Of a stretch of DNA of 47,146 bases, positions 2-38,371 are shown piece by piece. Origin of the DNA: Eubacteriales bacterium. GTDB taxonomy: Bacteria > Bacillota > Clostridia > Christensenellales > UMGS416. Every line of letters starts with the position of its first letter. Within the stretch, counting starts at the first letter, position 1. A program made the translations under genes and the position numbers. The notes below the pieces were generated by a model, which saw only the letters and a list, made by a program, of their open reading frames with translations, was not told the origin of the DNA and did not search any database. The DNA is taken from positions 1-47,146 of the forward strand of contig JAQUVY010000008.1 of assembly GCA_028693155.1 (NCBI GenBank), given 5' to 3'.

Positions 2-307
2 AAGGTATACCTGGCCGAGGGCGGCGTGGATTGCTACTTGTGCTATTTCGGTGAGGAGCCCGTGGGCAGCTGCGATCTGCTGGTATGGGACGGCATGGCC
101 AAAGGGGAGGATTTCACCATCTGCTCCCAGTGGAGAAAGCAAGGCTTTGGTTCGGCTGTGCTGGCGCAGCTGGCGGCCATCGCCCGGGAGAAGGGCGCGC
201 AGACGTTTTATGTCATGACCGATGAAGACGACACCGCCTGGCAGATGTACCGCAAATGCGGCATGGAGAGAGTGGGCGGCCGTCAGGAATGGTTTTTTAC
301 ATGGTAA
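2..307 (+). CDS. GNAT-family N-acetyltransferase, 5' partial
   Basis: The frame is open to the left edge, so the true start lies outside the window; a GTG at 26 is an internal codon rather than a convincing start. The visible 101 residues form the C-terminal half of a GCN5-related acetyltransferase: the acetyl-CoA-binding loop reads QWRKQGFGSAV, followed by the helix of that motif and a typical closing segment MYRKCGM. GNAT enzymes move an acetyl group from acetyl-CoA to an amine; the acceptor cannot be told from this fragment. A strong intrinsic terminator follows 17 bases after the stop, so this gene ends its own transcription unit. Confidence 0.8.
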   Translation, partial: KVYLAEGGVDCYLCYFGEEPVGSCDLLVWDGMAKGEDFTICSQWRKQGFGSAVLAQLAAIAREKGAQTFYVMTDEDDTAWQMYRKCGMERVGGRQEWFFTW

Positions 308-323
308 GCCCCAAGGAGGCGGG

Positions 324-354
324 AAAGGCGCGGCGATATGGCCGCGCCTTTTTT
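324..354 (+). terminator. Intrinsic terminator after the GNAT gene
   Basis: Perfect 11-bp stem: 324-334 (AAAGGCGCGGC) pairs with 341-351 (GCCGCGCCTTT), loop of 6, then a run of T. Confidence 0.85.
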
Positions 355-377
355 ATGCAAACCGGAGCGCCAAGGGG

Positions 378-406
378 CAGACAAAGCCGAACAAAGCTGG
401 TATAAT
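378..406 (+). promoter_or_regulatory. Promoter of the MFS/PHP operon
   Basis: TATAAT at 401-406 is preceded by TGG, giving an extended -10. CAGACA at 378-383 sits 17 bp upstream as a weak -35. It lies between the GNAT terminator and the next gene. Confidence 0.6.
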
Positions 407-455
407 GCGGCCTGTATCAAGCTGCGGCCAATGAATGCCCGCGCGGGAGGAAAGT

Positions 456-1655
456 ATGAACGCAATGCAGCGGCGCACCTTCGCCGCCTGTTTTATCGCC
501 TATACGGGTGCCTATATCGCCCGGTACAACTGGGCAGCGGCTTTGCCCGCGCTGATGGAGCAGCTGAACCTGACCGGCGCGCAGGCCGGCCTGCCCGCCA
601 CGCTGTTCGCGGTGGTTTATGCGGCGGGGCAGCTGGTGAGCGGTGCGGTGGTGGATCGCGTGCGCGCCAGAGATTTTCTGGTGGCGGGGCTGGCGGTTTC
701 GGCGCTGTGCAACCTGGGGATCTCCTTTTGCCGCAGCTTCGCACTCATTACGGTGCTGTGGTGTGTAAACGGCGCGGCACAGGCCATGCTGTGGACGCCC
801 ATCGTGAAGCTGTTTGCGCTGCGCTACAGCGGCGCGGCGCGGGCCAAGGCGACCTTTGGCATTTCGTTTTCGCTGGTGATCGGCCAGCTGCTGGCCTGGG
901 CGGGCGCCGGTGCGCTGAGCCAGGCGGCGGGTTGGCGCTGGGCCTTTGCCGTGTCGGCGGCAACGGCGCTGCTCAGCGCAGTTGCGGCCTTTTTTCTGCT
1001 GGGCGGGGATGTGGGTGATGAGAGTGCCTATACTGCGCGGCAGCGCCGGGAAGGCGGGGCGATGCCGCTGAAGAAAATGTTTTTCGCCACGGGACTTGTG
1101 GCGCTGCTGCTGGCCTGCGTGGCCAACGGCTTTGTGCGCGACAGCGTGATGACCTGGGCACCCAATATTTTGAGCAAGCTGAGCGGCGGCTCGTCCTCCG
1201 CAGTTTCGCTGATGATCCCCTGCCTGAACATGGCGGGGCTTTTGCTGGGCAAGCTGTGCCTGCGCCGCTTCGGCGGGGGCGCGCGCCGCACCACGGCTTA
1301 TGTGACGGCGTTTTGCGTGCCCTTTACGCTGCTGCTGGGGTTGGTGCGGGGCGGCTCGGTATGGCTGACAGCGGTGCTGCTGAGCGCGTGCTCGGCGCTG
1401 ATGTACGGCGTGAATCCGCTGATGACCTCGCTGATCCCCATGGAATACGACAAGGCCAAGCGGGTGGGGCTGGTGGCCGGGCTGATGGACAGCGCCATTT
1501 ATTTGGGCTCGGGGCTGTCGGGCGTGGCCACCGGCGCCATGCTAGATAACCTGGGCTTGAACGTGACCGCGCTGCTGTGGAGCGCGGCGGCGGTGCTGGC
1601 AGCTGCGGCAACGTTTTTTGCCGCCGCGAAAAAATGGAAGACGGCGCTGGAGTGA
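456..1655 (+). CDS. Major facilitator superfamily transporter
   Basis: A polytopic inner-membrane protein of 399 residues with about 12 hydrophobic segments, the usual MFS layout of two six-helix halves. The charged loop GAVVDRVRARDF after the second helix corresponds to the MFS motif A region, and RYNWAAALPALM in the first helix resembles organophosphate or sugar-phosphate transporters of the GlpT/UhpT side of the superfamily. The start at 456 is chosen because GGGAGG lies five bases upstream; an ATG at 435 in the same frame has no ribosome site. The PHP-domain gene follows after 28 bases, probably in the same operon, which may mean that the hydrolase acts on the imported compound (inference). 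Substrate not determinable by eye. Confidence 0.85.
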   Translation: MNAMQRRTFAACFIAYTGAYIARYNWAAALPALMEQLNLTGAQAGLPATLFAVVYAAGQLVSGAVVDRVRARDFLVAGLAVSALCNLGISFCRSFALITVLWCVNGAAQAMLWTPIVKLFALRYSGAARAKATFGISFSLVIGQLLAWAGAGALSQAAGWRWAFAVSAATALLSAVAAFFLLGGDVGDESAYTARQRREGGAMPLKKMFFATGLVALLLACVANGFVRDSVMTWAPNILSKLSGGSSSAVSLMIPCLNMAGLLLGKLCLRRFGGGARRTTAYVTAFCVPFTLLLGLVRGGSVWLTAVLLSACSALMYGVNPLMTSLIPMEYDKAKRVGLVAGLMDSAIYLGSGLSGVATGAMLDNLGLNVTALLWSAAAVLAAAATFFAAAKKWKTALE

Positions 1656-1683
1656 CCCGGCGCGCGCAATAGGAGGGATACGG

Positions 1684-2628
1684 ATGTTGATTCGTCAAGC
1701 CGCGTTTGAAAACGCGGGCAAGCTGCTCAAGGGTGCGCTGCACTGCCACACCACCCGCTCGGACGGAAAGGGTACGCCCGAAGAAGTGATTCGCCTGCAT
1801 GCCCAAAACGGGTATCAGTTCATGGCGATCACCGACCACCGGTATTATAACTACACCAACTTCGCACCCGATGTGCCCATGACCCTGTTGGGCGGCATGG
1901 AGTTCGACAACCATTTTGACGAGGATGCGGATTTTCACTGGGGAGATGGCTTCCGCTGCTTCCATATCGTTTCCGTTGGCCCCTCTCCAGAAGAGGGAAA
2001 CGGGTTTGAGCAGGATTTCCGCTGCGCCAGCGGCACGGCGAAGGATCAGCAGGCCTTCCAGCCTTACCTGGATTGGCTGCATGAGAACAACAACCTGACC
2101 GTTTATTGCCACCCCGAATGGAGCTCCACCCCGGCCAGATATTTTGACCAAATGAAGGGCAACTTCGCCATGGAGATCTGGAACTCGGGCTGCGCCATGG
2201 AAAACGCCATGGACACCAACGCCGCCTACTGGGACGAGCTGCTGGGTCAGGGGCAGCGTATTTTCGGCGTGGCCAGCGATGACGGCCATGCCATGGAACA
2301 GCATTGCCGTGGCTGGGTGATGGTCAACGCCGCCAACGACAGGCTCTCCATCTTAAAGGCGCTTAAAGCGGGGGCGTTTTATTCCTCCTGCGGCCCGCAG
2401 CTGACGGATTTTTATGTGCAGGACGGCAAAGTGGTCGTGGAATGCTCGCCCTGCGCGCAGGTGCGCCTGCTGTGCGACCGGCACCCGGCGATGATGATGC
2501 GCGACGCAGAAAACGGCATCACCCATGCCGCGTGGGACATTCCAACGGCGGCTTACCCCTATGTGCGGGCGGAAGTGATGGACGCGCAGGGACGACGCGC
2601 CTGGAGCAACCCTATTTTCCTGAGATAA
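1684..2628 (+). CDS. PHP-domain metal-dependent phosphoesterase
   Basis: A 314-residue protein of the polymerase-and-histidinol-phosphatase (PHP) superfamily, expected to hydrolyse a phosphoester using a di- or trinuclear metal centre. Metal-ligand motifs are in order: HCHTTRSDGK near residue 20, ITDHRYY near residue 46, a Glu in GGMEFDNH, HPEWSS near residue 146 and SDDGHAMEQH near residue 199. The last ~80 residues form a beta-rich tail (EVMDAQGRRAWSNPIF) common in stand-alone PHP proteins. AGGAGGG lies just upstream of ATG 1684. Co-transcribed with the MFS gene before it. The natural substrate is unknown. Confidence 0.85.
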   Translation: MLIRQAAFENAGKLLKGALHCHTTRSDGKGTPEEVIRLHAQNGYQFMAITDHRYYNYTNFAPDVPMTLLGGMEFDNHFDEDADFHWGDGFRCFHIVSVGPSPEEGNGFEQDFRCASGTAKDQQAFQPYLDWLHENNNLTVYCHPEWSSTPARYFDQMKGNFAMEIWNSGCAMENAMDTNAAYWDELLGQGQRIFGVASDDGHAMEQHCRGWVMVNAANDRLSILKALKAGAFYSSCGPQLTDFYVQDGKVVVECSPCAQVRLLCDRHPAMMMRDAENGITHAAWDIPTAAYPYVRAEVMDAQGRRAWSNPIFLR

Positions 2629-2641
2629 AAGGCTCGGCAAA

Positions 2642-2671
2642 AGAAAAGCTCCCCGAAGTTTCGGGGAGCTT
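2642..2671. terminator. Bidirectional terminator between convergent genes
   Basis: AAAAGCTCCCCGAA pairs with TTCGGGGAGCTTTT around a two-base loop; the flanking A and T runs let it work in both directions, for the PHP gene (+) and the MATE gene (-). Confidence 0.85.
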
Positions 2672-2689
2672 TTCTGCTGCGGCTGCGGG

Positions 2690-4084
2690 TCAAGCGTCAA
2701 CTTGCCCCTGCACTGGCGTGTGTTCTATGCGGCGCATCGCCTTTTTAAACTGAATGGCAAAGAGGATGGCAGTGGTGGTTACTGCAAGCACGTCGGCCAC
2801 CGGCTCGGCCAAAAACACCGCGTCGGTCTTGGGGATGGGCAGCATGGCCGGCAAAAGATAGATAAGCGGGATCAGTAGCACAACCTTGCGCAGAACGGCT
2901 AAAAACAGCGAGTAGGGCGCGTTACCGATGGCGATGAAGGTTTGCTGGCAGGCCAGCTGTACCCCAAAGACAAAGGCCGTGGACATGTAGATGCGCATGG
3001 CGTGCGATGAAAAGGCGAGCAGCTGCGCGTCGGAGGTGAACATGTGTACGAACACCTGGGGAAAGAGCATGGCGGCCAGCCACAGCAGGCAGGAGTAGAT
3101 CACGCTGGAAATCAGCAAAAGATTGAAAGCCTTTTTGACTCTCGGCGCGCTGCCCGCGCCGTAGTTATAGCTGACGATGGGCTGCGCGCCTTGGCTTAAG
3201 CCCATCATTGGCATCATGGAAAACTGCATCACGATGGCCAAAATACTCATGGAGCCCACCGCCACATCCCCGCCGTATTTGAGCAGGGAAGCGTTGAAGC
3301 ACATGGTGATTACGCTTTCGGTAAACTGCATGATGAAGGGGGACAGCCCCAGCGCCAGGCAGGGCAGAATGATGTGGGGAGCAAGGCGCAGATTGCGCGC
3401 CCGCAGGCGCAGCGTTGTTTTCTTCCCCGTTAAAAAAACCATGACCCACGCGGCGGATACGGCCTGCGAAAGGATGGTGGCCAGCGCGGCTCCCGATACG
3501 CCCATTTTGAACACGAAGATAAAAATGGGATCCAGCACAATGTTGCACACCGCGCCGATGAGTACGGTGAGCATGCTGATCTTTGCGAAGCCTTGGGCGG
3601 TGACGAAGGCGTTCATGCCCAGCGTCAGCTGCACAAAAAGCGTGCCGATGCTGTAAATGCGCAGATAAGCCGAGGCATAGGGCAGCGTGTTTTCGCTGGC
3701 GCCAAACAGCACCAGCAGCCTGTCGCCAAAGAGAAGAAACACTGCCGTCAGCACCAGCGACAGCGCCATCTGCAGCGCGGCGCAGTTGCCCAGCGTTTTT
3801 TCGGCGTTGTCCTTTTCCCCTTTGCCCAGGTAAATGGAGGCGCGGGGGGCACCGCCCATGCTGACCAGCGCGGCAAAGGCGGAAATGACCATGATAAGCG
3901 GCATGCACACGCCCACGCCAGTCAGCGCCAGCGGACCGGTGCCTTCCATGTGGCCGATGTACACGCGGTCCACCATGTTGTAGAGCAGGTTGACCACCTG
4001 CGCCGTGATGGCGGGGACTGCAAGCTGGAACAGCAGCTTCCCGATGCTGCCTTTCCCCAGCAGCTCGGTTTTGTTTTGATCCAT
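2690..4084 (-). CDS. MATE-family multidrug/cation antiporter
   Basis: A 464-residue, 12-helix membrane exporter of the MATE (NorM/DinF-like) family, which uses Na+ or H+ gradients to expel organic cations or drugs. The N-terminal repeat shows the family signature PAITAQVVNLLYNMVDRVYIG, and the second half shows MGLSQGAQPIVSYNYGA, the equivalent repeat motif. Start: ATG at 4084 (MDQNKTELL) has AGAGG about 12 bases upstream; an earlier in-frame ATG at 4096 directly abuts that site and is less likely. Transcribed divergently from the MarR gene at 4203, with a shared dyad between them, so export is probably induced when MarR binds a compound. Confidence 0.9.
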   Translation of the reverse strand: MDQNKTELLGKGSIGKLLFQLAVPAITAQVVNLLYNMVDRVYIGHMEGTGPLALTGVGVCMPLIMVISAFAALVSMGGAPRASIYLGKGEKDNAEKTLGNCAALQMALSLVLTAVFLLFGDRLLVLFGASENTLPYASAYLRIYSIGTLFVQLTLGMNAFVTAQGFAKISMLTVLIGAVCNIVLDPIFIFVFKMGVSGAALATILSQAVSAAWVMVFLTGKKTTLRLRARNLRLAPHIILPCLALGLSPFIMQFTESVITMCFNASLLKYGGDVAVGSMSILAIVMQFSMMPMMGLSQGAQPIVSYNYGAGSAPRVKKAFNLLLISSVIYSCLLWLAAMLFPQVFVHMFTSDAQLLAFSSHAMRIYMSTAFVFGVQLACQQTFIAIGNAPYSLFLAVLRKVVLLIPLIYLLPAMLPIPKTDAVFLAEPVADVLAVTTTAILFAIQFKKAMRRIEHTPVQGQVDA

Positions 4085-4123
4085 AAGTCGATTCATCCTC
4101 TTTCTTCTCGGGTAGGGCGGAGA

Positions 4124-4152
4124 TTGACATTGCTCCGTTTCCCGCGTAAAAT
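4124..4152 (+). promoter_or_regulatory. marR-family gene promoter
   Basis: Perfect -35 TTGACA (4124-4129), 17-bp spacer, -10 TAAAAT (4147-4152). The -10 overlaps the left arm of the dyad at 4150-4186. Confidence 0.8.
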
Positions 4153-4186
4153 AGTTTACAACAAAACGGTTTATCTGTAAACTATT
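4150..4186. promoter_or_regulatory. Probable MarR operator overlapping both divergent promoters
   Basis: Perfect 11-bp inverted repeat AATAGTTTACA (4150-4160) and TGTAAACTATT (4176-4186), 15-bp gap. On the minus strand the same arms supply a -35-like TTTACA (4181-4176) and -10-like TAAACT (4158-4153) 17 bp apart, which is the likely MATE promoter. Binding here would block both genes. Confidence 0.7.
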
Positions 4187-4202
4187 CAGCGCGAGGTGTG
4201 TC

Positions 4203-4658
4203 ATGAGTGACAACATACGGCGGATCGGCGGTTACATCACCGCCACCCGGCGCACGAGAGCACTGTACGAGAAGATGGCCGAGAAAACCGCCTCTGCCTT
4301 GGGCATCACCAAGCCCGAGGCTGATGTGATCCTTTTTCTGGTCAACAATCCCGGGCTGGATACGGCCACCGACGTGGTGGCTTACCGAGGGGTGTCCAAG
4401 GGCTATGTATCCAAGGCGGTGGAGCTGCTGGTTGGCAAGGGGCTGCTGGCGGTGCAGCCCGATGCGCACGACCGCCGGGTGCAGCGCATGACGCTGCAAA
4501 AAGATGCCGCGCCGCTGGTGGAAGCGCTGCACGCCATGCAGGACAGCTTTTTCGCGCAGCTATGCCGCGGCATATCCCGGCAGGAGCTGGAGGCATACTG
4601 GGCAACCCAGCAAAAGATGCTGAAAAACGTGGAGCGCGCGGCCACAGCACCGGAATAA
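4203..4658 (+). CDS. MarR-family transcriptional regulator
   Basis: A 151-residue winged-helix repressor. The DNA-binding part runs from about residue 35 to 105: KPEADVILFLVNNPG, then the recognition region GVSKGYVSKAVELLVGKGLL, then the wing with DAHDRRVQRMTL, which matches the D-x-R-D-x-R-type wing of MarR proteins. MarR proteins act as dimers and release DNA when they bind small, often aromatic or antimicrobial, ligands. GAGGTG lies upstream of ATG 4203. Divergent from the MATE exporter and placed directly beside the dyad at 4150-4186, so it very likely controls both itself and the pump. Confidence 0.9.
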   Translation: MSDNIRRIGGYITATRRTRALYEKMAEKTASALGITKPEADVILFLVNNPGLDTATDVVAYRGVSKGYVSKAVELLVGKGLLAVQPDAHDRRVQRMTLQKDAAPLVEALHAMQDSFFAQLCRGISRQELEAYWATQQKMLKNVERAATAPE

Positions 4659-4666
4659 TCGGTTTC

Positions 4667-4705
4667 AAAAAAGGATGTTGTACGGCTGAACAACATCCTT
4701 TTTTT
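4667..4705. terminator. Terminator between marR and the convergent GNAT gene
   Basis: AAAAAAGGATGTTGT pairs with ACAACATCCTTTTTT, short loop; symmetrical A/T runs allow use in both directions. Confidence 0.85.
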
Positions 4706-4719
4706 GCGCATTGGCTTTG

Positions 4720-5316
4720 CTATAAACCTTCCTCAATAAAATGATTTTCGTACTTTTCCCAATACTTCCAAAAAACACGTTGGCGGCTGCCGTCAAAATT
4801 CAACTGATACATTCTGAAGGTTACGGGAAAATCTTTCGGCTGCCACTGCTCCACATAGGAATACTGATACGCCATGCCGATTTTTTTCATGACGCCGCCG
4901 CTGTGCGGATTGTTCACATCGTGCGTTGCCGTAATATAGGGATAGCCTGCGGTTTTGATGCGCTCCGTGACGGCTTTTGCGCCCTCGCTGATGAGGCCCT
5001 TGTGCCAAAATTCCTTTTTGAGCCCATAGCCCAAATCGTTGCTTTCAGCATCGGACAGGCAGATATAGCCGATGGGCCGGTTGTCCGCTTTGCGGCAAAC
5101 GGCATAACGGTAGGCACTTGGCTTGCCGTAATCGTCCAAAAAATTCTTCGCCAAAAAGGAGCGCGCCTGCTCCATGTTTTCAAGCGGGAACCAGGGCAAA
5201 AAGGTGTTTACCTCTTTGTCACTCAAAATATCAAACAGTGCCGGCGCATCCCCTGCCTCAAACTGACGCAGGATAAGCCGCCGGGTCATGATGGTCGGTG
5301 TGTTCTCGTTTATCAT
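4720..5316 (-). CDS. GNAT acetyltransferase, RimJ/RimL-like
   Basis: A 198-residue GNAT protein of the RimJ/RimL (Acetyltransf_3) type, whose members acetylate N-terminal residues of ribosomal proteins or other amines including antibiotics. Features: TRRLILRQFEAGDAPALFDIL near the N-terminus, the typical opening of this family; RPIGYICL in strand 4; LGYGLKKEFWHKGLISEG as the acetyl-CoA loop; and NPHSGGVMKKIGM, the usual S-x-x-x-x-x-K-x-G segment. Start at 5316 (MINEN) is preferred, since GCGAGGCGG lies about 11 bases upstream, over an in-frame ATG at 5355 without a ribosome site. Acceptor substrate unknown. Confidence 0.85.
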   Translation of the reverse strand: MINENTPTIMTRRLILRQFEAGDAPALFDILSDKEVNTFLPWFPLENMEQARSFLAKNFLDDYGKPSAYRYAVCRKADNRPIGYICLSDAESNDLGYGLKKEFWHKGLISEGAKAVTERIKTAGYPYITATHDVNNPHSGGVMKKIGMAYQYSYVEQWQPKDFPVTFRMYQLNFDGSRQRVFWKYWEKYENHFIEEGL

Positions 5317-5365
5317 AGGGTTTGCCGCCTCGCTTGAAAAAATTTGCCCCGTCATCCATCACAAA

Positions 5366-5394
5366 GGCGGATGAAAACAACCGTTTCATCCGCC
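5366..5394 (-). terminator. Likely terminator of the CoA-disulfide reductase gene
   Basis: Perfect 11-bp stem (GGCGGATGAAA with TTTCATCCGCC, 7-base loop). On the minus strand it is followed only by TTTGTG, so efficiency may be modest. Confidence 0.55.
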
Positions 5395-5429
5395 GGGTTA
5401 AGGAGATGTCAGCCTCGCGTTTTGGAGGC

Positions 5430-7874
5430 TTAAATAAAGAGATTTACGTTGGATTCCTCGGCGTCGCCCAGATAAGCGCCCACGCCGCCCAGTTCTACGC
5501 CCTCTATAAGCTCGTCTTCCTTGATGCCCATCACGTCCATGCTCATGGTGCACGCCACGATGCGCACGCCGTGCTCCATGGCCTTTTGAATCAGCGTTTC
5601 CAGAGAATCCACGTTCTTGTCGTTCATGATCTTTTTCATCATGGCCGTGCCCATGCCCGCCATGTTCATGCGGGAAAGCTTCAGCTTTTTGCTGCCCCGG
5701 GGGAGCATGGCACCGAACATCTTCTCGATAAAGGCCTTTTGAACCGGCTGCTTCTTGGCCTTGCGCAGCACGGTCAGGCCCCAGAAGGTGAAGAACATGG
5801 TCACCGGCCGCCCCATGGCGGCGGCGCCGTTGGCGATGATAAAGCTGGCCAGCACCTTGTCCAGATCGCCGGAAAATACGATGATGGTCTTGCCCTGGGG
5901 CGTGTCGCGCACAGCGGGAGCCGCGCAGGCGCCGCCCTTTTTCACCCGGGCAATGTAATCGGTGTTTTCGTGTCGGGTGTCAAGGAGCGTGTTGCCGGTG
6001 CGGCGGCACCAGGCGCCGATGTCCCGCACAAAGCCGGGATCGGAAGCGCAAACCTCCAGCGTGTCCCCGTCCTTGAGCTCCTTCATGGCTTCAAACACCT
6101 TCATGATAGGCCCCGGGCATTGCAGCCCGCTGCAATCCACCCGCACCGAGGCGGCTGCTACATTCTTTAGAGGCGCGGCATCGCCTGTCGGTTGGCTGCC
6201 CTGGGGCTGCCCGGCGGTGGAGGTGTGAACCGACTGATAGAAGCGCACCCCGCCGGGATAGATAAGCACGTGCGCAAACCCGCCCTGCATGAGGATGCGC
6301 GCGGCGTTGTAGGCGCGCACGCCCACCGCGCAGAACACCACATAGGTCTTGGCGCGATCCAGCTCGTCCAGCCTGCTTCGCAGCTGCCCCAGCGGAATAT
6401 GCACCGCGCCGGGCAGAGAAAAGGCCATCAGCTCCGCATCTTCGCGAACATCCAACGCCACAGCCTGGGGCTGCGTCTCCAGAGCGTCCCAAGCGGCAAA
6501 GCGCGCCAGCCCGTTGAGCACGTTTTCGGCCACGAAGCCCGCCATGTTCACCGGATCCTTAGCCGAGGAGTAGGGAGGGGCGTAGGCCAGCTCCAGCTGG
6601 CGCAGGTCGCGCACGCCGCCGCCCAGGCGCTGCGTGACGGCAATGGTGTCAATGCGCTTATCCACGCCGTCCCGCCCTACGATCTGCGCGCCGAAGATCT
6701 TTTTGCCGTCGGCGCTGAAGAGCAGCTTCAGGGCCATGGGCACCGCGCCGGGGTAGTAGCCCGCGTGGGAATTCTGGGTGATGAGGATGCTCTCATAATC
6801 TTTTCCTTTGACCATGCCGCGGCGCAGCAGCGCTTTTTCGTTGGCGCCGGTGCTTGCCGCCGTCAGGTCGAACACCTTGGCCACCGAGGTGCCCTGGGAG
6901 CCGGTGTAGGCGTCCTGAAGGCCGGCGATGTTGTTTGCGGCGATGCGACCCTGCTTGTTTGCCGGTCCGGCCAGCGGGATCATGGTGCGATCCCCAAAAA
7001 CCAGATCCTGCACCTCGATCACATCGCCCACGGCGTAGATGTGGGGATCGGAGGTGCGCAGGGCTTCATCGGTCACAATGCCGCCCCGGGCGTTGACCGC
7101 CAAGCCGGCGCTTTTGGCCAGCTGCGCGTTGGGGCGCACGCCGATGGCCAGGATGACCAGCGAGGCGGTGAGCGAAGCACCGCTTTTCAGACGGATGGAG
7201 ACTTGGCTTTCCGTGTCCTCAAAGGAATCCACGCCATCGCCCAGGTAAAGCTGCACGCCGTTTTCCAGCAGGTTTTCGTGGAGCAGCTGCGCCATTTCAT
7301 AATCCAGCGGTGTCATCACCTGATCCTGCGCTTCGACGATGCTGACCTCCAGCCCGGCGTGGCGCAGGTTTTCCGCCATTTCCAGCCCGATAAACCCGCC
7401 GCCCACGATCGCCGCCGAGCGGATGTTCTCTTCCTGCACCTTTGCGCGGATTCGATCCGTATCCGGCACCGTCCACAGCGTTTCAATGCGCGGGGAAGAG
7501 ATGCCGGGGATGGGCGGGCGCAGGGGGGAAGAGCCGGTGGCGAGCACCAAAACATCGTAGGGCTCGGTATAAGTTTCGCCGCTCTCCAGGCGCTTTACCG
7601 TGACGGTCTGTTGTTCGCGGTCTATGCTGACCGCCTCGTTTTTGACCCGCACGTCGATGTTGAACTTGGCCTTCATGGCCTCCGGGGTTTGCAGCAGCAG
7701 CGCACTGCGGGATTTGATCACGCCGCCTACATGGTAGGGAAGTCCACAGTTGGCATAGGAAATGTATTCCCCGCGCTCCAGCAAGACGATCTGCGCCTCG
7801 GCGTCCAGCCGCCTAAGCCGGGCCGCGCAGCTGGCGCCGCCCGCCACACCGCCGATGATGACCACTTTTTTCAT
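5430..7874 (-). CDS. CoA-disulfide reductase-like FAD enzyme fused to rhodanese, TusA and DsrE domains
   Basis: An 814-residue cytoplasmic four-domain protein. Residues 1-450 form an FAD/NAD(P)H disulfide reductase of the CoADR/Nox family: FAD motif GGVAGGASCAA, Cys43 in SYANCGLPY (the position of the redox Cys that cycles with CoA), NAD motif IVGGGFIGLE near 160 and the closing FAD motif IYAVGD near 280. Residues ~465-550 form a rhodanese domain with active-loop Cys515 (CAVGVR). Residues ~575-645 form a TusA-like sulfur carrier with the CPGP motif at Cys586. Residues ~660-814 form a DsrE/F-like domain with Cys775. The order suggests persulfide or polysulfide reduction with sulfur passed between domains in one chain. 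GGAGG upstream supports ATG 7874. Monocistronic by context. Confidence 0.9.
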   Translation of the reverse strand: MKKVVIIGGVAGGASCAARLRRLDAEAQIVLLERGEYISYANCGLPYHVGGVIKSRSALLLQTPEAMKAKFNIDVRVKNEAVSIDREQQTVTVKRLESGETYTEPYDVLVLATGSSPLRPPIPGISSPRIETLWTVPDTDRIRAKVQEENIRSAAIVGGGFIGLEMAENLRHAGLEVSIVEAQDQVMTPLDYEMAQLLHENLLENGVQLYLGDGVDSFEDTESQVSIRLKSGASLTASLVILAIGVRPNAQLAKSAGLAVNARGGIVTDEALRTSDPHIYAVGDVIEVQDLVFGDRTMIPLAGPANKQGRIAANNIAGLQDAYTGSQGTSVAKVFDLTAASTGANEKALLRRGMVKGKDYESILITQNSHAGYYPGAVPMALKLLFSADGKKIFGAQIVGRDGVDKRIDTIAVTQRLGGGVRDLRQLELAYAPPYSSAKDPVNMAGFVAENVLNGLARFAAWDALETQPQAVALDVREDAELMAFSLPGAVHIPLGQLRSRLDELDRAKTYVVFCAVGVRAYNAARILMQGGFAHVLIYPGGVRFYQSVHTSTAGQPQGSQPTGDAAPLKNVAAASVRVDCSGLQCPGPIMKVFEAMKELKDGDTLEVCASDPGFVRDIGAWCRRTGNTLLDTRHENTDYIARVKKGGACAAPAVRDTPQGKTIIVFSGDLDKVLASFIIANGAAAMGRPVTMFFTFWGLTVLRKAKKQPVQKAFIEKMFGAMLPRGSKKLKLSRMNMAGMGTAMMKKIMNDKNVDSLETLIQKAMEHGVRIVACTMSMDVMGIKEDELIEGVELGGVGAYLGDAEESNVNLFI

Positions 7875-32526: not shown

Positions 32527-32974
32527 GAGCCTTTTTAAACTTTTTTTGCCGGGCGCGTATTGTTTGCGGCAAACGGGGGATGATGGTAGAGAAGCCAAAC
32601 GGATCACCCGCCGCAAAACACGGGAAGCGCCTTTTTCAAAGCTCCATGCAGAGGTTGTTTTATCAGGAAGAACCATGTACCGGGCAAGAGAACCTGCATC
32701 AGCAGACTCAACGAAAAAAAGACGCGGGCACGTACCGATGAATTTTTCCAACGCGGAAGAAGCCATCTGTTCCATTGCCGGTTCGGTTGGCTTCTTTGTG
32801 TTTTTTTTATCAAGGCGCAGGCAAGCGACATAATTCGCCAGGATCGGACAAATATAGGGTTTATGTTTTCTTGTTTTTTGAGGACTCGTGCGCTAAAATA
32901 ACACCAGTTGCTTCAGTTTTTGTTGCGTTTTGCCCGGGATGCCGTGGTTCTGTCTGCGCGGGGTTTTCACAAGT
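32527..32974. other. Gene-poor AT-rich stretch with one terminator-like hairpin
   Basis: No coding frame here has a ribosome site, plausible composition or recognisable motif. The one clear structure is AAGAAGCCA (32757-32765) pairing with TGGCTTCTT (32788-32796), followed by GTGTTTTTTTT: an intrinsic terminator on the plus strand with no gene visible before it. It may be the leftover of a lost gene or end a small RNA. Confidence 0.5.
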
Positions 32975-35548
32975 ATGGACAAAAGTTATTTGCGGAAGAA
33001 TATTCGCTTGAGATGGGTTCTGGCGGGAATATGCATTCTGGCGGCCGGGGTTGTGCTGTCTTTTTGCTTTTTTGCCATCCGCAACGTAGACGAAAGCACC
33101 GACCAGCTGCGAACCCTTTATATGCAGTTGCAGCCGCGTTATCAAAAGATACAGACACTTTGCAATCTCATCAATAAAATGCAGAACACCTATCGCAAAA
33201 TGTACAATAACCCCGATGGCATGTTTGACCAGCGCTGGACGCTGCTCAAAGGATACATGCAGGACTGCAGGCTTCAGCTTGACGCCCTGATCGCCGATCA
33301 AACGGAGGACGCCGCGCTGCTGGAGGAGGTCAAGCTGGCCGTATGCACCCTGCAGCAGCAAATCCACGCGGAGTTGGAGCGGGGAAACGTATATTTACTG
33401 GATGGGCAGAATCACATCTCCTCTTTAAACGATAACCTTATGAAAAAGCTGGAAGCGCTGGAGCGGGAATCCTCCCTGGCCATCGACAAGGCGCTGGAAA
33501 GCAACGCGCATTACGCAAAGCAGAATATCAACAACAACATGGGTCTGGTTCTGATCATGTCGGTGTTGATGGTGTTCATCGTCGGCCTGATGGCTTTCCT
33601 TTTTTGGAACACCGCCAAGTGTTCCTATCAGGACGGGCTCATCCGGCGGATGGCCATGAGCAGCATAGATGAGGGCTTTTTTGTGGTCAATCCCCAGCAG
33701 GAAAAGGTTGAGTACATCAGTGAGCGCGTGGAAACCATTCTGGGCGTGCCGTCCAGTGTGGATCATCGGGGCTATTTGCAGTGGCGGGAATATTGCCGGG
33801 CGAGTGCCATCGAAAATACGGACATTGAGAAGCTTCTTGCCGCCCACGAGGAGGAAAGCGCTGAGCTGGATGTCTCCGCGGGAGAAGAAGGGCGGTGGAT
33901 CGGCCTGCATTTTTATCCGCTGACCTGGCCCTCGGGGCAAATGCGCTATGTTGTGAAGGTTGCCGACCAGACGCGGCGGCATATTGACCGGGAAAAGCTG
34001 GCCGATACGCTGCGGGACGCCATCGCCGCGACCAAGCAGACTGCGGAGCAGCTGTCCAGCCTGTGTCATGAGGTGCGCACGCCCCTTAACGGCGTGCTGG
34101 CCTTTGCCCGCCAGGCGAAGCGCTGCTCGGGGCAGCCGGAAAAGCAGCTGCAGGCCATCAGCAACATCGAAAGCTCTGCCGATTACCTTTTGCGGCTGAC
34201 CAAGGAAATGCTGCTCAGCGAAAAGATCCGTCAGGGGGATATGGAGCTGGTGAAGGAGGAGTTCCTTCCCGGTGCGCTGATCCGCGACGTGGCAAACCTC
34301 ATGGTGGTGCAGGTGAAAGCCAAGGATCAAAAGCTGATTGTAAACGTAAACGGCATCAGCGGGTATTGCGCGTGGGGCGATCCCCTGCGCTGCCAGCAGA
34401 TTCTTTTTAATCTTTTGTCCAATGCGGTGAAATTTGCGCCGGCAGGTGGTATAATTCAACTGACCGCAGAACTGACCCCCACCCAGGATGGGAATCTTCA
34501 TTTTGCCTTTTCCGTGCAGGATAACGGCATCGGGATGAGCGAATCCTTTCTGGAGAAGCTGTTTTTGCCCTTTACCCAGGAGGGTGACGCCTACACCCAG
34601 GCACAGGGCACCGGTTTGGGCATGAGCATTACCAAAACCCTGGTGGAGCAGATGGGCGGTTCGATCTCGGTGGAGAGCAAACTGGGCGAGGGGACGACCT
34701 TTTATGTGGAGCTGCACCTTGCGCTGGGAGCTTTGGTGCCCATCCCGCAGCTTGGCGTCTCGCCCCGGGTGCTGCTGCTGGATGATGATGTGCTGCGCGC
34801 CGGGCACACCCTGCGCAAGCTGATCGTCATGGGGGCTGCGGCAACCGGCGTAGGTGCGCAGGAGCAGCTGCAAGTGGAGCTGAGCCAGCGCAGGTATGAC
34901 GTCTGCATTTTGTGCGGGCGGGCATGCCAGAGCCCACAACGGGTGATAGAGCTTCTTCACGAGCAGGACGTTAAGGCGGTGTATGTTCCGCAGGCCTGGG
35001 CGCAGGAGCTCGAGGGAGCGGACGCATACCTGGACAGCGCGCTGCTGTATGCGGACGTTTACGCGGCGCTGTGTAAGGTTCTGGGCATCAAAGGCGAGCA
35101 GGCTCCTGCAGAGAAAATAACCCAAGATATGGTCGGGCGGCATATCCTTGTGGCAGACGACAACGCCGCCAGCCGTGACATCCTTTGCGATCTGCTGGCG
35201 CTGCGGGGCGCGGCTGCCCAGGGGATGCCCGACGGCACGAAGCTGCTGGAGGCGTATTGCCGCAGCGAGCAGGACGAGATCGATGCGGTTTTGCTGGATC
35301 TGCATATGCCCGGAGAGCTGAGCAGCTGGCAGACGGCGCTGGCCATTCGGGCCAGCCACCGCAGAGATGCGCGCAGACTGCCCATCATCGGCGTGACTGC
35401 GGGTGCCAGCCAGGAGGAATGTGCGCGCGCCATGCGCAGCGGCATGAACGCCTGCGTCATCAAACCCGTGGAAATGAAGGAGCTGTGCAAGCTGCTGATG
35501 GATTTATGGAACGAGGGAGAAGAGGATGGAAGAAAGATTTGCGGATGA
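32975..35548 (+). CDS. Hybrid sensor histidine kinase with degenerate and intact receiver domains
   Basis: 857 residues. TM1 (~13-34), an extracytoplasmic helical region of ~150 residues, TM2 (~189-211), a PAS-like region (~222-330), HisKA with His365 in SLCHEVRTPLNGVLAF, HATPase with N box NLLSNAVKFAP, G1 DNGIGM and G2 GTGLGMS (to ~585). Receiver 1 (~597-705) keeps LLLDDD but has Cys647 (ILCGRAC) where the phospho-Asp should be, so it is probably inactive. Receiver 2 (~722-850) is complete: ADDN, Asp775 in LLDLHMPG, Thr in GVTAG, Lys in IKPV. This is a BarA/RcsC-like relay needing an HPt protein, which is encoded next and overlaps by 23 bases. Start: ATG 32975; its ribosome site is weak and an upstream TTG at 32930 is possible. 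Confidence 0.9.
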   Translation: MDKSYLRKNIRLRWVLAGICILAAGVVLSFCFFAIRNVDESTDQLRTLYMQLQPRYQKIQTLCNLINKMQNTYRKMYNNPDGMFDQRWTLLKGYMQDCRLQLDALIADQTEDAALLEEVKLAVCTLQQQIHAELERGNVYLLDGQNHISSLNDNLMKKLEALERESSLAIDKALESNAHYAKQNINNNMGLVLIMSVLMVFIVGLMAFLFWNTAKCSYQDGLIRRMAMSSIDEGFFVVNPQQEKVEYISERVETILGVPSSVDHRGYLQWREYCRASAIENTDIEKLLAAHEEESAELDVSAGEEGRWIGLHFYPLTWPSGQMRYVVKVADQTRRHIDREKLADTLRDAIAATKQTAEQLSSLCHEVRTPLNGVLAFARQAKRCSGQPEKQLQAISNIESSADYLLRLTKEMLLSEKIRQGDMELVKEEFLPGALIRDVANLMVVQVKAKDQKLIVNVNGISGYCAWGDPLRCQQILFNLLSNAVKFAPAGGIIQLTAELTPTQDGNLHFAFSVQDNGIGMSESFLEKLFLPFTQEGDAYTQAQGTGLGMSITKTLVEQMGGSISVESKLGEGTTFYVELHLALGALVPIPQLGVSPRVLLLDDDVLRAGHTLRKLIVMGAAATGVGAQEQLQVELSQRRYDVCILCGRACQSPQRVIELLHEQDVKAVYVPQAWAQELEGADAYLDSALLYADVYAALCKVLGIKGEQAPAEKITQDMVGRHILVADDNAASRDILCDLLALRGAAAQGMPDGTKLLEAYCRSEQDEIDAVLLDLHMPGELSSWQTALAIRASHRRDARRLPIIGVTAGASQEECARAMRSGMNACVIKPVEMKELCKLLMDLWNEGEEDGRKICG

Positions 35549-35891
35549 AATGAAAGCCGCCGGTATTGATTTTCAGGAAGGCATGAGCAGGTTTTCCGAC
35601 AATCGTGAATTGTATATCAAATATTTGTACCGTTTTTGCGAGGATGAGGAGTACGACCGCATTCTGCTGCTGCTCCAGTCGGGCAAAAATGCGGAGGCCT
35701 CCGGGCATATCCACTCGCTCAAGGGGCTGGCGGCCAGCCTCAGCCTGAACGCCTTGCGGGACAGCTGCGCCACGCTGCAGGAGATGGTGGACGCCGGGCA
35801 GGACGTGCAGGAGGAGCTGGATCGGTTCCAGAGCGTGTTTGGGCAGACATTGGGGCTGCTTTTGCAGATGCTGCAGGAAGAACCCCAATAA
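35526..35891 (+). CDS. Histidine phosphotransfer (HPt) protein
   Basis: 121 residues, all-helical. The phospho-accepting His63 sits in HIHSLKGLAASL, matching the H-x-L-K-G HPt signature, with the following helix NALRDSCATLQEMVDAG as in other HPt four-helix bundles. It overlaps the hybrid kinase gene by 23 bases, so it almost surely carries phosphate from that kinase's second receiver onward. No response regulator with an output domain lies in the window, so the final target is elsewhere. Starts at ATG 35526 after GAGGGAGAAGAGG. Terminator follows. Confidence 0.9.
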   Translation: MEERFADEMKAAGIDFQEGMSRFSDNRELYIKYLYRFCEDEEYDRILLLLQSGKNAEASGHIHSLKGLAASLSLNALRDSCATLQEMVDAGQDVQEELDRFQSVFGQTLGLLLQMLQEEPQ

Positions 35892-36035: not shown

Positions 36036-36875
36036 ATGAAAAGATTTGTAAAGCTGACCGCTGCCGTTATGACCCTGCTGCTGGTGGTTTTGTCCATGGC
36101 AGGCTGCAAGAGCGAAGCGGCTAAGAAGTATGTGGTGCTGGACGAAGCGCTGGAGGCGGAGCAGTACGGCATCGGCTTCCGCAACGGCGACATTGCTCTG
36201 GGTCTGGAAGTGCAGAAGCAGCTGGACACCATGGCCGCCGACGGTGCCTCCGCCAAGATCGCCGAGACCTGGTTCGGCACGGATAACCTGATCAAGGACG
36301 CGGCTTACCTGGAAGAGAGCGAAGCGCCGGCCGAGGACGATTCCCTGACCAAGGTGCTGGATAAGGGCAAGCTGGTCGTGGGTCTGGACGATAGCTTCCC
36401 GCCCATGGGTTTCCGCGACGAGGACAACAACATCGTGGGCTTTGACATCGACCTGGCCAAGGAAGTGTGCAAGCGCATGGGCGTGGAGCTGGTGCTGCAG
36501 CCCATCGACTGGGACGCCAAGGAGATGGAGCTGAACAGCGGCAAGATCGACTGCATCTGGAACGGCATGAGCATCGACGATGAGCGTCTGGCCAACATGT
36601 ACTTCACCAAGCCTTACATTGCCAACCGGCAGATCATCATTGTGCCCGAGGGCTCGTCCATCAAGACGATCGCCGATCTGGAGGGCAAAAAGGTGGGTCT
36701 GCAAAAGGGTTCCACCGCGCTGAGCGCCCTGACCAAGAACCCCATTTCCGAGAAGGTGACCTCCATCACCGAGCTGGCCGATAACGTCAGCGTGTTCCTG
36801 GAGCTGAAGGCCGGCCGCATTGACGCCTTTGTGGTAGACGAAGTCGTGGGCCGTTACATCATGACCAACAACTGA
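36036..36875 (+). CDS. Amino-acid ABC transporter binding lipoprotein, apparently circularly permuted
   Basis: 279 residues; signal with lipobox MAGC (Cys24). The family is SBP_bac_3 (cystine/glutamine-type): KLVVGLDDSFPPMGF, IVGFDIDLAKEV, IDCIWNGMSI, VGLQKGSTAL and FVVDEVV are all present. The order is unusual. Directly after the lipobox, residues ~31-82 (KYVVLDEAL, YGIGFR, ETWFGTD) are the segment that normally ends such proteins, and the chain then passes through an acidic linker (~83-106) into what is normally the start. The protein stops right after YIMTNN, where the moved segment would have followed. Length is near normal, so it is a rearrangement, not a duplication or truncation. A terminator-like hairpin after the stop and the permease/ATPase genes complete the operon. 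ATG 36036 is used (GGAGAGGGAG upstream). Confidence 0.9.
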   Translation: MKRFVKLTAAVMTLLLVVLSMAGCKSEAAKKYVVLDEALEAEQYGIGFRNGDIALGLEVQKQLDTMAADGASAKIAETWFGTDNLIKDAAYLEESEAPAEDDSLTKVLDKGKLVVGLDDSFPPMGFRDEDNNIVGFDIDLAKEVCKRMGVELVLQPIDWDAKEMELNSGKIDCIWNGMSIDDERLANMYFTKPYIANRQIIIVPEGSSIKTIADLEGKKVGLQKGSTALSALTKNPISEKVTSITELADNVSVFLELKAGRIDAFVVDEVVGRYIMTNN

Positions 36876-36893
36876 TTCCAAAAAATCAGCGGG

Positions 36894-36922
36894 CCCTCGG
36901 GCGTGTTCCGAGGGTCTGTTTT
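36894..36922 (+). terminator. Hairpin between binding-protein and permease genes
   Basis: CCCTCGG pairs with CCGAGGG around seven bases, then TCTGTTTTTT. Partial termination here would give more binding protein than permease. Confidence 0.75.
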
Positions 36923-36964
36923 TTGGCTTTGCGCGGGCTTTTCCGGCAGGGCGGGGAGGGTGAG

Positions 36965-37615
36965 ATGGATTATTTTTTGCAGCTGTGCGGCGCGCTGAGC
37001 GGCGGGCTGAAATATACGGTAGGGCTGTTTGCCATCACCATTGCGTGTTCGCTGCCGCTGGGGCTGGCGCTGGCTTTCCTGCGCGCAAGCGGCAACCGCT
37101 TTGTGCGCGGCATAACCGGCGGCTATGTTTGGCTGATGCGGGGCACGCCGCTGCTGCTACAGCTGTTTTTTTTCTATTTTGGCCTGACCTTTATTCCGGT
37201 TATCGGGAAATATCTGACCATGGAGCGCTTTCCCGCCGCCTGCGTGACCTTTGTGCTGAACTACGCCGCGTATTTCTGCGAGATCTTTCGCGGCGGGCTG
37301 CTCTCGGTGGATAAGGGGCAGCACGAGGCGGCGAAGGTGCTGGGCTTCTCGCGCTGGCAAACGACGCTGCGCGTGGTCATTCCGCAGATGCTGCGGGTGG
37401 CACTGCCGCCGGTCACCAACGAGGCCATTACTCTGGTGAAGGATACGGCGCTGGTTACCGCCATCGGCGTGACCGAGGTGCTGTACTTTGCCAAGTCCGC
37501 GGTCAACCGCGACGTCAACGTGCTGGCCTATGTGGTGGCGGCGGTGTTTTATCTGGTCATGACCTATGGGCTGACCCAGCTGTTTAAATATCTGGAAAAG
37601 CGCTTTAGCTTTTAA
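36965..37615 (+). CDS. Amino-acid ABC transporter permease (HisM/GlnP type)
   Basis: 216 residues with about five hydrophobic segments. The ATPase-contact loop EAAKVLGFSRWQTTLRVVIPQ is the EAA motif, and TPLLLQLFFFYFGL and NYAAYFCEIFRGG are typical of polar amino-acid permeases. Forms a homodimeric channel fed by the binding protein before it. GGGGAGGGTGAG precedes ATG 36965. The ATPase gene starts 12 bases after its stop. Confidence 0.94.
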   Translation: MDYFLQLCGALSGGLKYTVGLFAITIACSLPLGLALAFLRASGNRFVRGITGGYVWLMRGTPLLLQLFFFYFGLTFIPVIGKYLTMERFPAACVTFVLNYAAYFCEIFRGGLLSVDKGQHEAAKVLGFSRWQTTLRVVIPQMLRVALPPVTNEAITLVKDTALVTAIGVTEVLYFAKSAVNRDVNVLAYVVAAVFYLVMTYGLTQLFKYLEKRFSF

Positions 37616-37627
37616 GGGGGGGACAAG

Positions 37628-38371
37628 ATGGAGATGCTGCGAGCCGCGGGACTGTGCAAGTCCTTTGGCGAAGATGTGGTGCTGGAAAACGTCGATTTTT
37701 CGGTGGAGAAGGGCGAAACCGTGGCGGTGATCGGCTACTCCGGATCGGGCAAGAGCACCATGCTGCGCTGCCTGATCGACCTGGAGCGGGCGGACGCCGG
37801 CGACATCATTGTGGAGGGTGAGTATTTGATGAAGGGCGGCGTGTACGCGCCCGAAGTCGAGAAGCGGCGCATCTGCGCCCGCATGGGCATGGTGTTTCAA
37901 AGCTTCAACCTCTTTCCCCATGTCAATGTGCTCAACAACCTTATTTACGCGCCCATGTATGTAAAAAAAGAACCCAAGGCGCAGGCCGTCGCCCGCGCGC
38001 GGGAGCAGCTGACGCTGGTGGGGCTGGCGGACAAGGCGGACGCCATGCCGAACTCACTTTCAGGCGGGCAAAAGCAGCGCGTGGCCATCGCCCGGGCATT
38101 GATGATGCAGCCCGATGTGCTGCTGTTTGACGAGCCCACCTCCTCTTTGGATCCGCAGCTGACAGGAGAAGTGCTGGCGGTGATGAAAAAGCTGGCTGCC
38201 CAGCGCATGACCATGGTGGTGGTAACCCATGAAATGGGCTTTGCCAAGGAAGCGGCCGATCGCGTGGTCTTTATGGGCGATCACGGCATCTTGGAGCAGG
38301 GAACGCCGGCGGAGATGTTCGGCGCGCCCAAGGACCCGAGGGTGAAAAACTTTATCAGCAGCATTTTATAG
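37628..38371 (+). CDS. Amino-acid ABC transporter ATPase (GlnQ type)
   Basis: 247 residues. Walker [10 protein letters not shown] (residues ~36-44), Q-loop [10 protein letters not shown], signature LSGGQKQR, Walker [14 protein letters not shown]-loop VVTHEMGFA. The family usually couples uptake of cystine, glutamine or other polar amino acids. ATG 37628 follows GGGGGG. Completes the SBP-permease-ATPase set. Confidence 0.95.

Follow-up and report, generated by a model that had tools for sequence, protein, structure and literature searches.

A naturally circularly permuted amino-acid-binding lipoprotein at a clostridial ABC importer locus, and evidence for a recurrent route to such proteins

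Does the gene at 36036..36875 of the window (the whole stretch of DNA analyzed here, i.e., the 47,146 nucleotides of contig JAQUVY010000008.1 from an Eubacteriales bacterium) encode an ordinary amino-acid-binding lipoprotein of the SBP_bac_3 family, or one whose chain has been naturally circularly permuted, as was claimed in an original prediction made from the sequence, and how could such a chain have come about? We answer with high confidence that the protein is a natural circular permutant serving as the receptor of an ATP-binding cassette (ABC) importer, and that it would have arisen by duplication along a route repeated in Clostridia. The gene and its product comprise the following features.

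36036..36875, + strand: circularly permuted SBP_bac_3-type amino-acid-binding lipoprotein of 279 amino acids, with ATG start and stop TGA
36036..36107, + strand: type II (lipoprotein) signal peptide, residues 1-23, plus the lipidated Cys24 (SMAGC), assigned from the sequence
36123..36287, + strand: moved block, residues 30-84 (KYVVLDEAL..YGIGFR..WFGTD), homologous to the C-terminal stretch of canonical SBP_bac_3 chains (3hv1 193-251; doubled profile)
36288..36356, + strand: linker of residues 85-107, bridging the native C- and N-termini (sequence alignment)
36357..36863, + strand: main block, residues 108-276, homologous to the first ~170 residues in canonical chains (3hv1 18-190; Pfam PF00497)
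36585..36587, + strand: codon of Arg184 (profile column 75)
36837..36839, + strand: codon of Asp268, within VVDE (profile column 160)

The ATG at 36036 is preceded by a good ribosome-binding site, GGAGAGGGAG. The translated open reading frame (ORF) proceeds from Cys24, which is invariant across the aligned permuted orthologues, through KYVVLDEAL..YGIGFR..ETWFGTD (residues 30-84) and an acidic linker to KLVVGLDDSFPPMGF..VVDEVVGRYIMTNN and the stop. When the protein was compared with PDB using phmmer, its residues 108-276 aligned with 18-190 of 3hv1 and its residues 26-84 with 193-251. The two blocks were swapped in this way in all four best single-domain chains (3hv1, AncQR 4zv1, 4ohn and 6det), the identity to the best structural matches being 34-43%. 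Only about two residues of the fold, located at the cut, are unaccounted for in the 3hv1 match; the arrangement is a circular permutation and not a domain loss or insertion. The Pfam SBP_bac_3 model (PF00497) matched residues 113-233 (E 8.6e-37, 126 bits at a cut-off of 26.4), spanning positions 1-109 only of the 132 in the profile. In the doubled-profile test, for which a profile was built from 135 canonical proteins and the candidates were aligned to its single and doubled forms, doubling gained 86 bits for the window protein, at most 11.7 bits for 140 canonical ORFs and 27-172 bits for 81 permuted ORFs. The tail of the window protein precedes its core, contrary to the canonical chain order, and the protein is a homologous permuted derivative of SBP_bac_3 rather than an ordinary member. 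The residue order quoted in the original prediction is thus reproduced by translation of the + strand, and its claim of circular permutation is borne out both by phmmer and by the doubled profile, in which the order came out rotated and not normal. The transfer to the front stands as well, although the moved portion has to be corrected from ~50 to ~55 residues and the linker from ~24 to ~23; nothing of the fold has been lost, all its blocks being present in the 3hv1 comparison, and the permease and ATPase that it placed beside the gene were found, by profile matches, directly downstream.

Structure prediction, which had been proposed as a check of the permutation, was carried out for the mature protein with AlphaFold2; the input alignment combined permuted orthologues with separate canonical core and tail fragments. 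The model reached a mean predicted local distance difference test score (pLDDT) of 95.2 and a predicted template modelling score (pTM) of 0.89, and its block pLDDT stayed at 96-98 through the moved segment; the canonical control L012 gave a pLDDT of 89.4 and a pTM of 0.82. After rotation, the helices and strands of the model correspond to those of the control, and the moved tail would pack in its native place. Foldseek, which aligns in chain order, matched the window model to 3hv1 and 4ohn over 168-181 columns (TMt 0.53-0.59, core only), compared with 240-242 columns (TMt 0.76-0.81) for L012 and the same targets. In GlnBP-like folds both native termini are held by lobe 1, and lobe 2 is formed by the middle of the chain. 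In the window protein the chain is cut between VVDEVVGRYIMTNN and KYVVLDE, and its new ends are located in lobe 2, immediately ahead of the second hinge strand. Between fixed anchor residues, the lipidated Cys is separated from the VLDE strand by a median of 10 residues in proteins with this cut (type A), and from the first lobe-1 strand by a median of 23 residues in canonical proteins; these distances indicate that the tether has probably shifted from lobe 1 to lobe 2.

The window protein is not a solitary case. When the permuted profile was run on 396 genomes from the order to which the window belongs, further type A proteins came up along with two additional cut sites. A junction profile (A3), which can be matched end to end only by permuted or tandem proteins, was applied to 391 genomes of the class and 399 of the phylum. 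Among the 391 from the class, at least 31 contain a permuted SBP_bac_3 gene. By the doubled profile, 81 ORFs were permuted (36 of type A, 21 of type B and 24 of type C, four partial rows having been typed by hand), 140 were canonical and one was a tandem duplicate. On the 230 profile columns, the cuts cluster at ~164-176 (type A, before the second hinge strand), ~120-134 (type B, after the GSAGE helix) and ~88-107 (type C, directly behind the first hinge strand), all three sites being in lobe 2. Type C was confirmed by phmmer, which aligned residues 167-261 of L224 with 11-105 of AncQR and residues 27-147 with 108-232. In a tree of 113 rows built in canonical register, the canonical/permuted label changes 15 times, losses possibly included, and the well-supported branches force at least eight changes. 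The window protein belongs to a single type A clade of nine permuted rows, supported at 97 by the Shimodaira-Hasegawa-like approximate likelihood ratio test, and the enclosing group of 13 rows (95) also contains four canonical proteins. Judging from the alignments and this tree, many separate permutation events have taken place in type II binding lipoproteins of Clostridia.

The two residues expected to bind the ligand can be followed through these sets. Arg184, which we take to be the equivalent of the family Arg that binds the ligand carboxylate, stands in a column where 136/140 canonical ORFs and 31/36 of type A have R; Asp268, presumably equivalent to the family Asp that binds the ligand amino group, has D in 136/140 canonical ORFs and in 34/34 type A rows with a residue there. 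The ligand Arg has been lost in some members of each of the types A, B and C. It is replaced by Ile, Val or Leu in L130-L132, L146, L161, L191, L194 and others, all permuted, which suggests for these proteins a ligand other than an alpha-amino acid.

A recent rotation was encountered in the genus g194, where one subfamily has the permuted order in three species (G692, G451 and G587) and the canonical order in another seven, G477 among them; the two forms share up to 83% amino-acid identity, and the pair G477 and G587 is about 80% identical. The permuted locus L270 and the canonical locus L271 are collinear upstream through the signal peptide (212-3190 equal to 6-2996) and downstream through the terminator, permease and ATPase (3944-5860 equal to 3762-5676). 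Between these flanks the blocks are swapped, the tail at 3191-3340 corresponding to 3576-3725 and the core at 3390-3914 to 3034-3570, and the nucleotide identity is 75-81%. In the g194 tree the permuted species are nested among canonical relatives, their sister being the canonical G477 (100/99); the switch probably went from the canonical to the permuted form, and it took place in situ. Behind the gene, the intergenic DNA of permuted g194 loci has the shared terminator but no remnant copy of the tail.

How such rotations arise is suggested by locus L197 (1096-2679, genome G1124), at which one ORF of 528 amino acids encodes a signal peptide followed by two closely similar full SBP_bac_3 domains of the window protein's subfamily. 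This is the kind of intermediate that permutation by duplication would be expected to produce. L197 is the only true tandem among the junction-profile matches: L229, at first suspected of being a tandem fusion, turned out to join a permuted binding domain to a permease, and the L239/L221 match, likewise a candidate tandem fusion, was classed as canonical. The chain of L229 (2087-3697, genome G527) combines a type C permuted binding domain, an ordinary signal peptide and a permease, the permuted C-terminal end on the lobe 2 side running into the membrane domain; L256 (G694), with an ORF of 501 amino acids, is probably another such type C fusion, as its ORF length suggests. For the window gene itself we infer the duplication route: it would leave the end of the linker similar to the stretch that follows the lipobox, and the linker end DDSLTKVLDKG does resemble the post-lipobox region of canonical relatives. 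The proposed scheme is then as follows. An internal tandem duplication of the mature domain would have been followed by loss of the front of the first copy and the tail of the last, a route that SBP_bac_3 lipoproteins of Clostridia may have used repeatedly, with three cut places in lobe 2. The resulting chain would fold into the usual two-lobed type II flytrap and serve a polar-amino-acid ABC importer as its substrate-binding lipoprotein. Arg184 and Asp268, both conserved, would hold the amino acid, and the protein would dock on the permease and ATPase encoded alongside; physically, the chief consequence would be a membrane tether that leaves via lobe 2, not lobe 1, through a short stretch.

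Whether the tether shift matters to the cell divides two explanations of the recurrence. The repeated permutations might be neutral by-products of frequent internal tandem duplication, the shift being functionally meaningless, and we give this close to an even chance. The tandem intermediate L197 does exist, as do solved tandem binding domains (6h30), and the operons of permuted and canonical genes are alike. Against neutrality stand the several events with three cut clusters, all found in lobe 2 (a bias coming partly from the search design), and the retention of permuted forms over long divergence. Alternatively, permutation may be a recurrent selected route in Clostridia, in which independent internal duplications end up with the new termini in lobe 2, shifting the tether (or, in L229 and probably L256, the fused permease) away from lobe 1 and so altering how the transporter meets its receptor; this we consider somewhat less likely than not.

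Several points weigh against the account of the window protein as a working permutant that arose by a recurrent duplication route. The L197 tandem is a single case and no direct ancestor of the window gene. The junction profile is sensitive only to cuts at about columns 50-200, so the restriction of the cuts to lobe 2 reflects in part how the search was built. Lobe-1 cut sites are covered in part: with a rotated profile cut in lobe 1 at column 45 and run on 291 genomes of the class, none of the 66 matches listed crosses into the moved front, and each stops where the native C-terminal end is reached or a little beyond. How the tail packs is read from the model rather than from superposed coordinates, and the folding, ligand binding and transport of the window protein are predictions. 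Finally, the orthologue L009 has an in-frame TAG (4514-4516) where its relatives carry Tyr, and at least one copy may therefore be decaying or misread; a nonsense mutation, a sequencing error and recoding are the candidate causes.

Three further explanations concern the window gene alone. It is very unlikely that the fold is reached only by exchange of the moved segment between neighbouring molecules, so that the protein would be a segment-swapped dimer or other oligomer and not a monomeric permutant: both native termini are on lobe 1 in this family, the linker is of sufficient length, and the single-chain prediction is confident. We regard as extremely unlikely that the gene is broken, i.e., a remnant of tandem duplication or a pseudogene staying open by chance. 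The stop codon in L009 would suit this idea, and permutation by duplication must traverse such states. However, the same order and the same cut are present in L003-L009, which come from separate assemblies and are 44-70% identical to the window protein (the L006 copy is incomplete, at a contig start), and the order is thus retained at divergence down to 44-50% identity; Arg184, Asp268 and the operon are retained too. Measured against L003, the ratio of nonsynonymous to synonymous substitution rates comes to 0.20 over the gene as a whole; the core (0.15) and the moved tail (0.24) are both under purifying selection. An assembly or binning rearrangement, which the original prediction itself had named as a danger and for which the origin of the contig from a draft metagenome-assembled genome of 175 contigs might speak, has a negligible chance, as the search for same-order orthologues which it proposed found them in seven other separate assemblies and in several more, G163 with a contig of 1.3 Mb among them, both the frame and the linker at the junction are conserved between species, the gene lies 10 kb away from a contig end, and orthologues of the same order in independent genomes exclude such an error.

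The circularly permuted receptor can now be compared with known systems. Type II proteins of SBP_bac_3 (3hv1, 4ohn, GlnH, LAO and HisJ) are homologous to it over the whole fold, and the canonical members share its ligand residues and its permease and ATPase partners; the canonical relatives in these genomes are mostly lipoproteins, as it is. It differs from them in that the C-terminal ~55 residues come first and that the ends, and probably the tether, are on lobe 2. A natural permutant among binding proteins is already known, namely the glucose-binding lipoprotein TpMglB-2 (Tp0684) of Treponema pallidum, designated 'type Ic', with a type I fold, the first three N-lobe strands on the C-terminal side and an extra hinge crossing (PMC4990184). 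Its relatives occur in treponemes and Gram-positive gut bacteria; its authors described just one permuted family, whose permuted part matched poorly in sequence, and raised the question of membrane tethering as a driver of permutation (PMC4990184). Both TpMglB-2, which works as a flytrap, and the window protein are permuted ABC binding lipoproteins; the latter, however, has a predicted type II fold, and its C-terminal part, not the first N-lobe strands, has been moved, to the front, while the type II permutants as a group show high identity, many events and several sites. In tandem domains of the GlnPQ type (6h30) and in L197, a slice across both domains has the order of a permutant (residues 27-262 of L224 match 101-332 of 6h30), but these chains hold two full domains instead of a single rotated one. 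Engineered permutants demonstrate that the lobes tolerate permutation (PMC9815098); unlike the window protein, they and those of the biosensor papers are man-made. No prior report of type II or of repeated binding-protein permutation was found in the open-access literature searched, and the recurrent type II case is apparently new.

Natural circular permutation is usually viewed as rare, ancient and reconstructed from distant structures. Here, one family offers numerous events spread over three cut sites, together with a tandem intermediate and a same-locus canonical/permuted pair in one genus, and this series makes the process traceable at the DNA level and its functional effect measurable. 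The switch between sister species in g194 makes the cause of the rotations testable, and the series as a whole bears directly on the tethering suggestion made for TpMglB-2 (PMC4990184). It is also a warning for annotation that a rotation is hidden by Pfam-style local matches and by order-dependent structure searches.

The transporter genes downstream of the receptor gene are arranged as follows.

36888..36928, + strand: intrinsic-terminator-like hairpin between the binding-protein and permease genes (scan; also delimited as 36888-36920; fold -27.7 kcal/mol, z -4.4)
36965..37615, + strand: amino-acid ABC permease (BPD_transp_1, 8e-24; a cystine permease model is the closest)
37628..38371, + strand: ABC transporter ATPase of polar amino acid type (ABC_tran, 7e-35; EhuA/TcyN/GlnQ models)

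The permease ORF opens at TTG 36923, but ATG 36965 has the better ribosome-binding site. The position of the hairpin corresponds to the usual layout, which would let the binding protein be made in excess. Among permuted loci with enough flanking sequence, the permease is found downstream in 74/79 and the ATPase in 58/60. At L268-L274, the permeases that follow the g194 binding-protein gene have variable N-terminal extensions (zinc-ribbon-like, hydrophobic), whereas the window permease is plain. Directly upstream of the binding-protein gene, the window carries a hybrid sensor kinase with a receiver domain (32930-35548) and then an Hpt-domain protein (35526-35891), and a signalling link of these two proteins to the transporter is possible.
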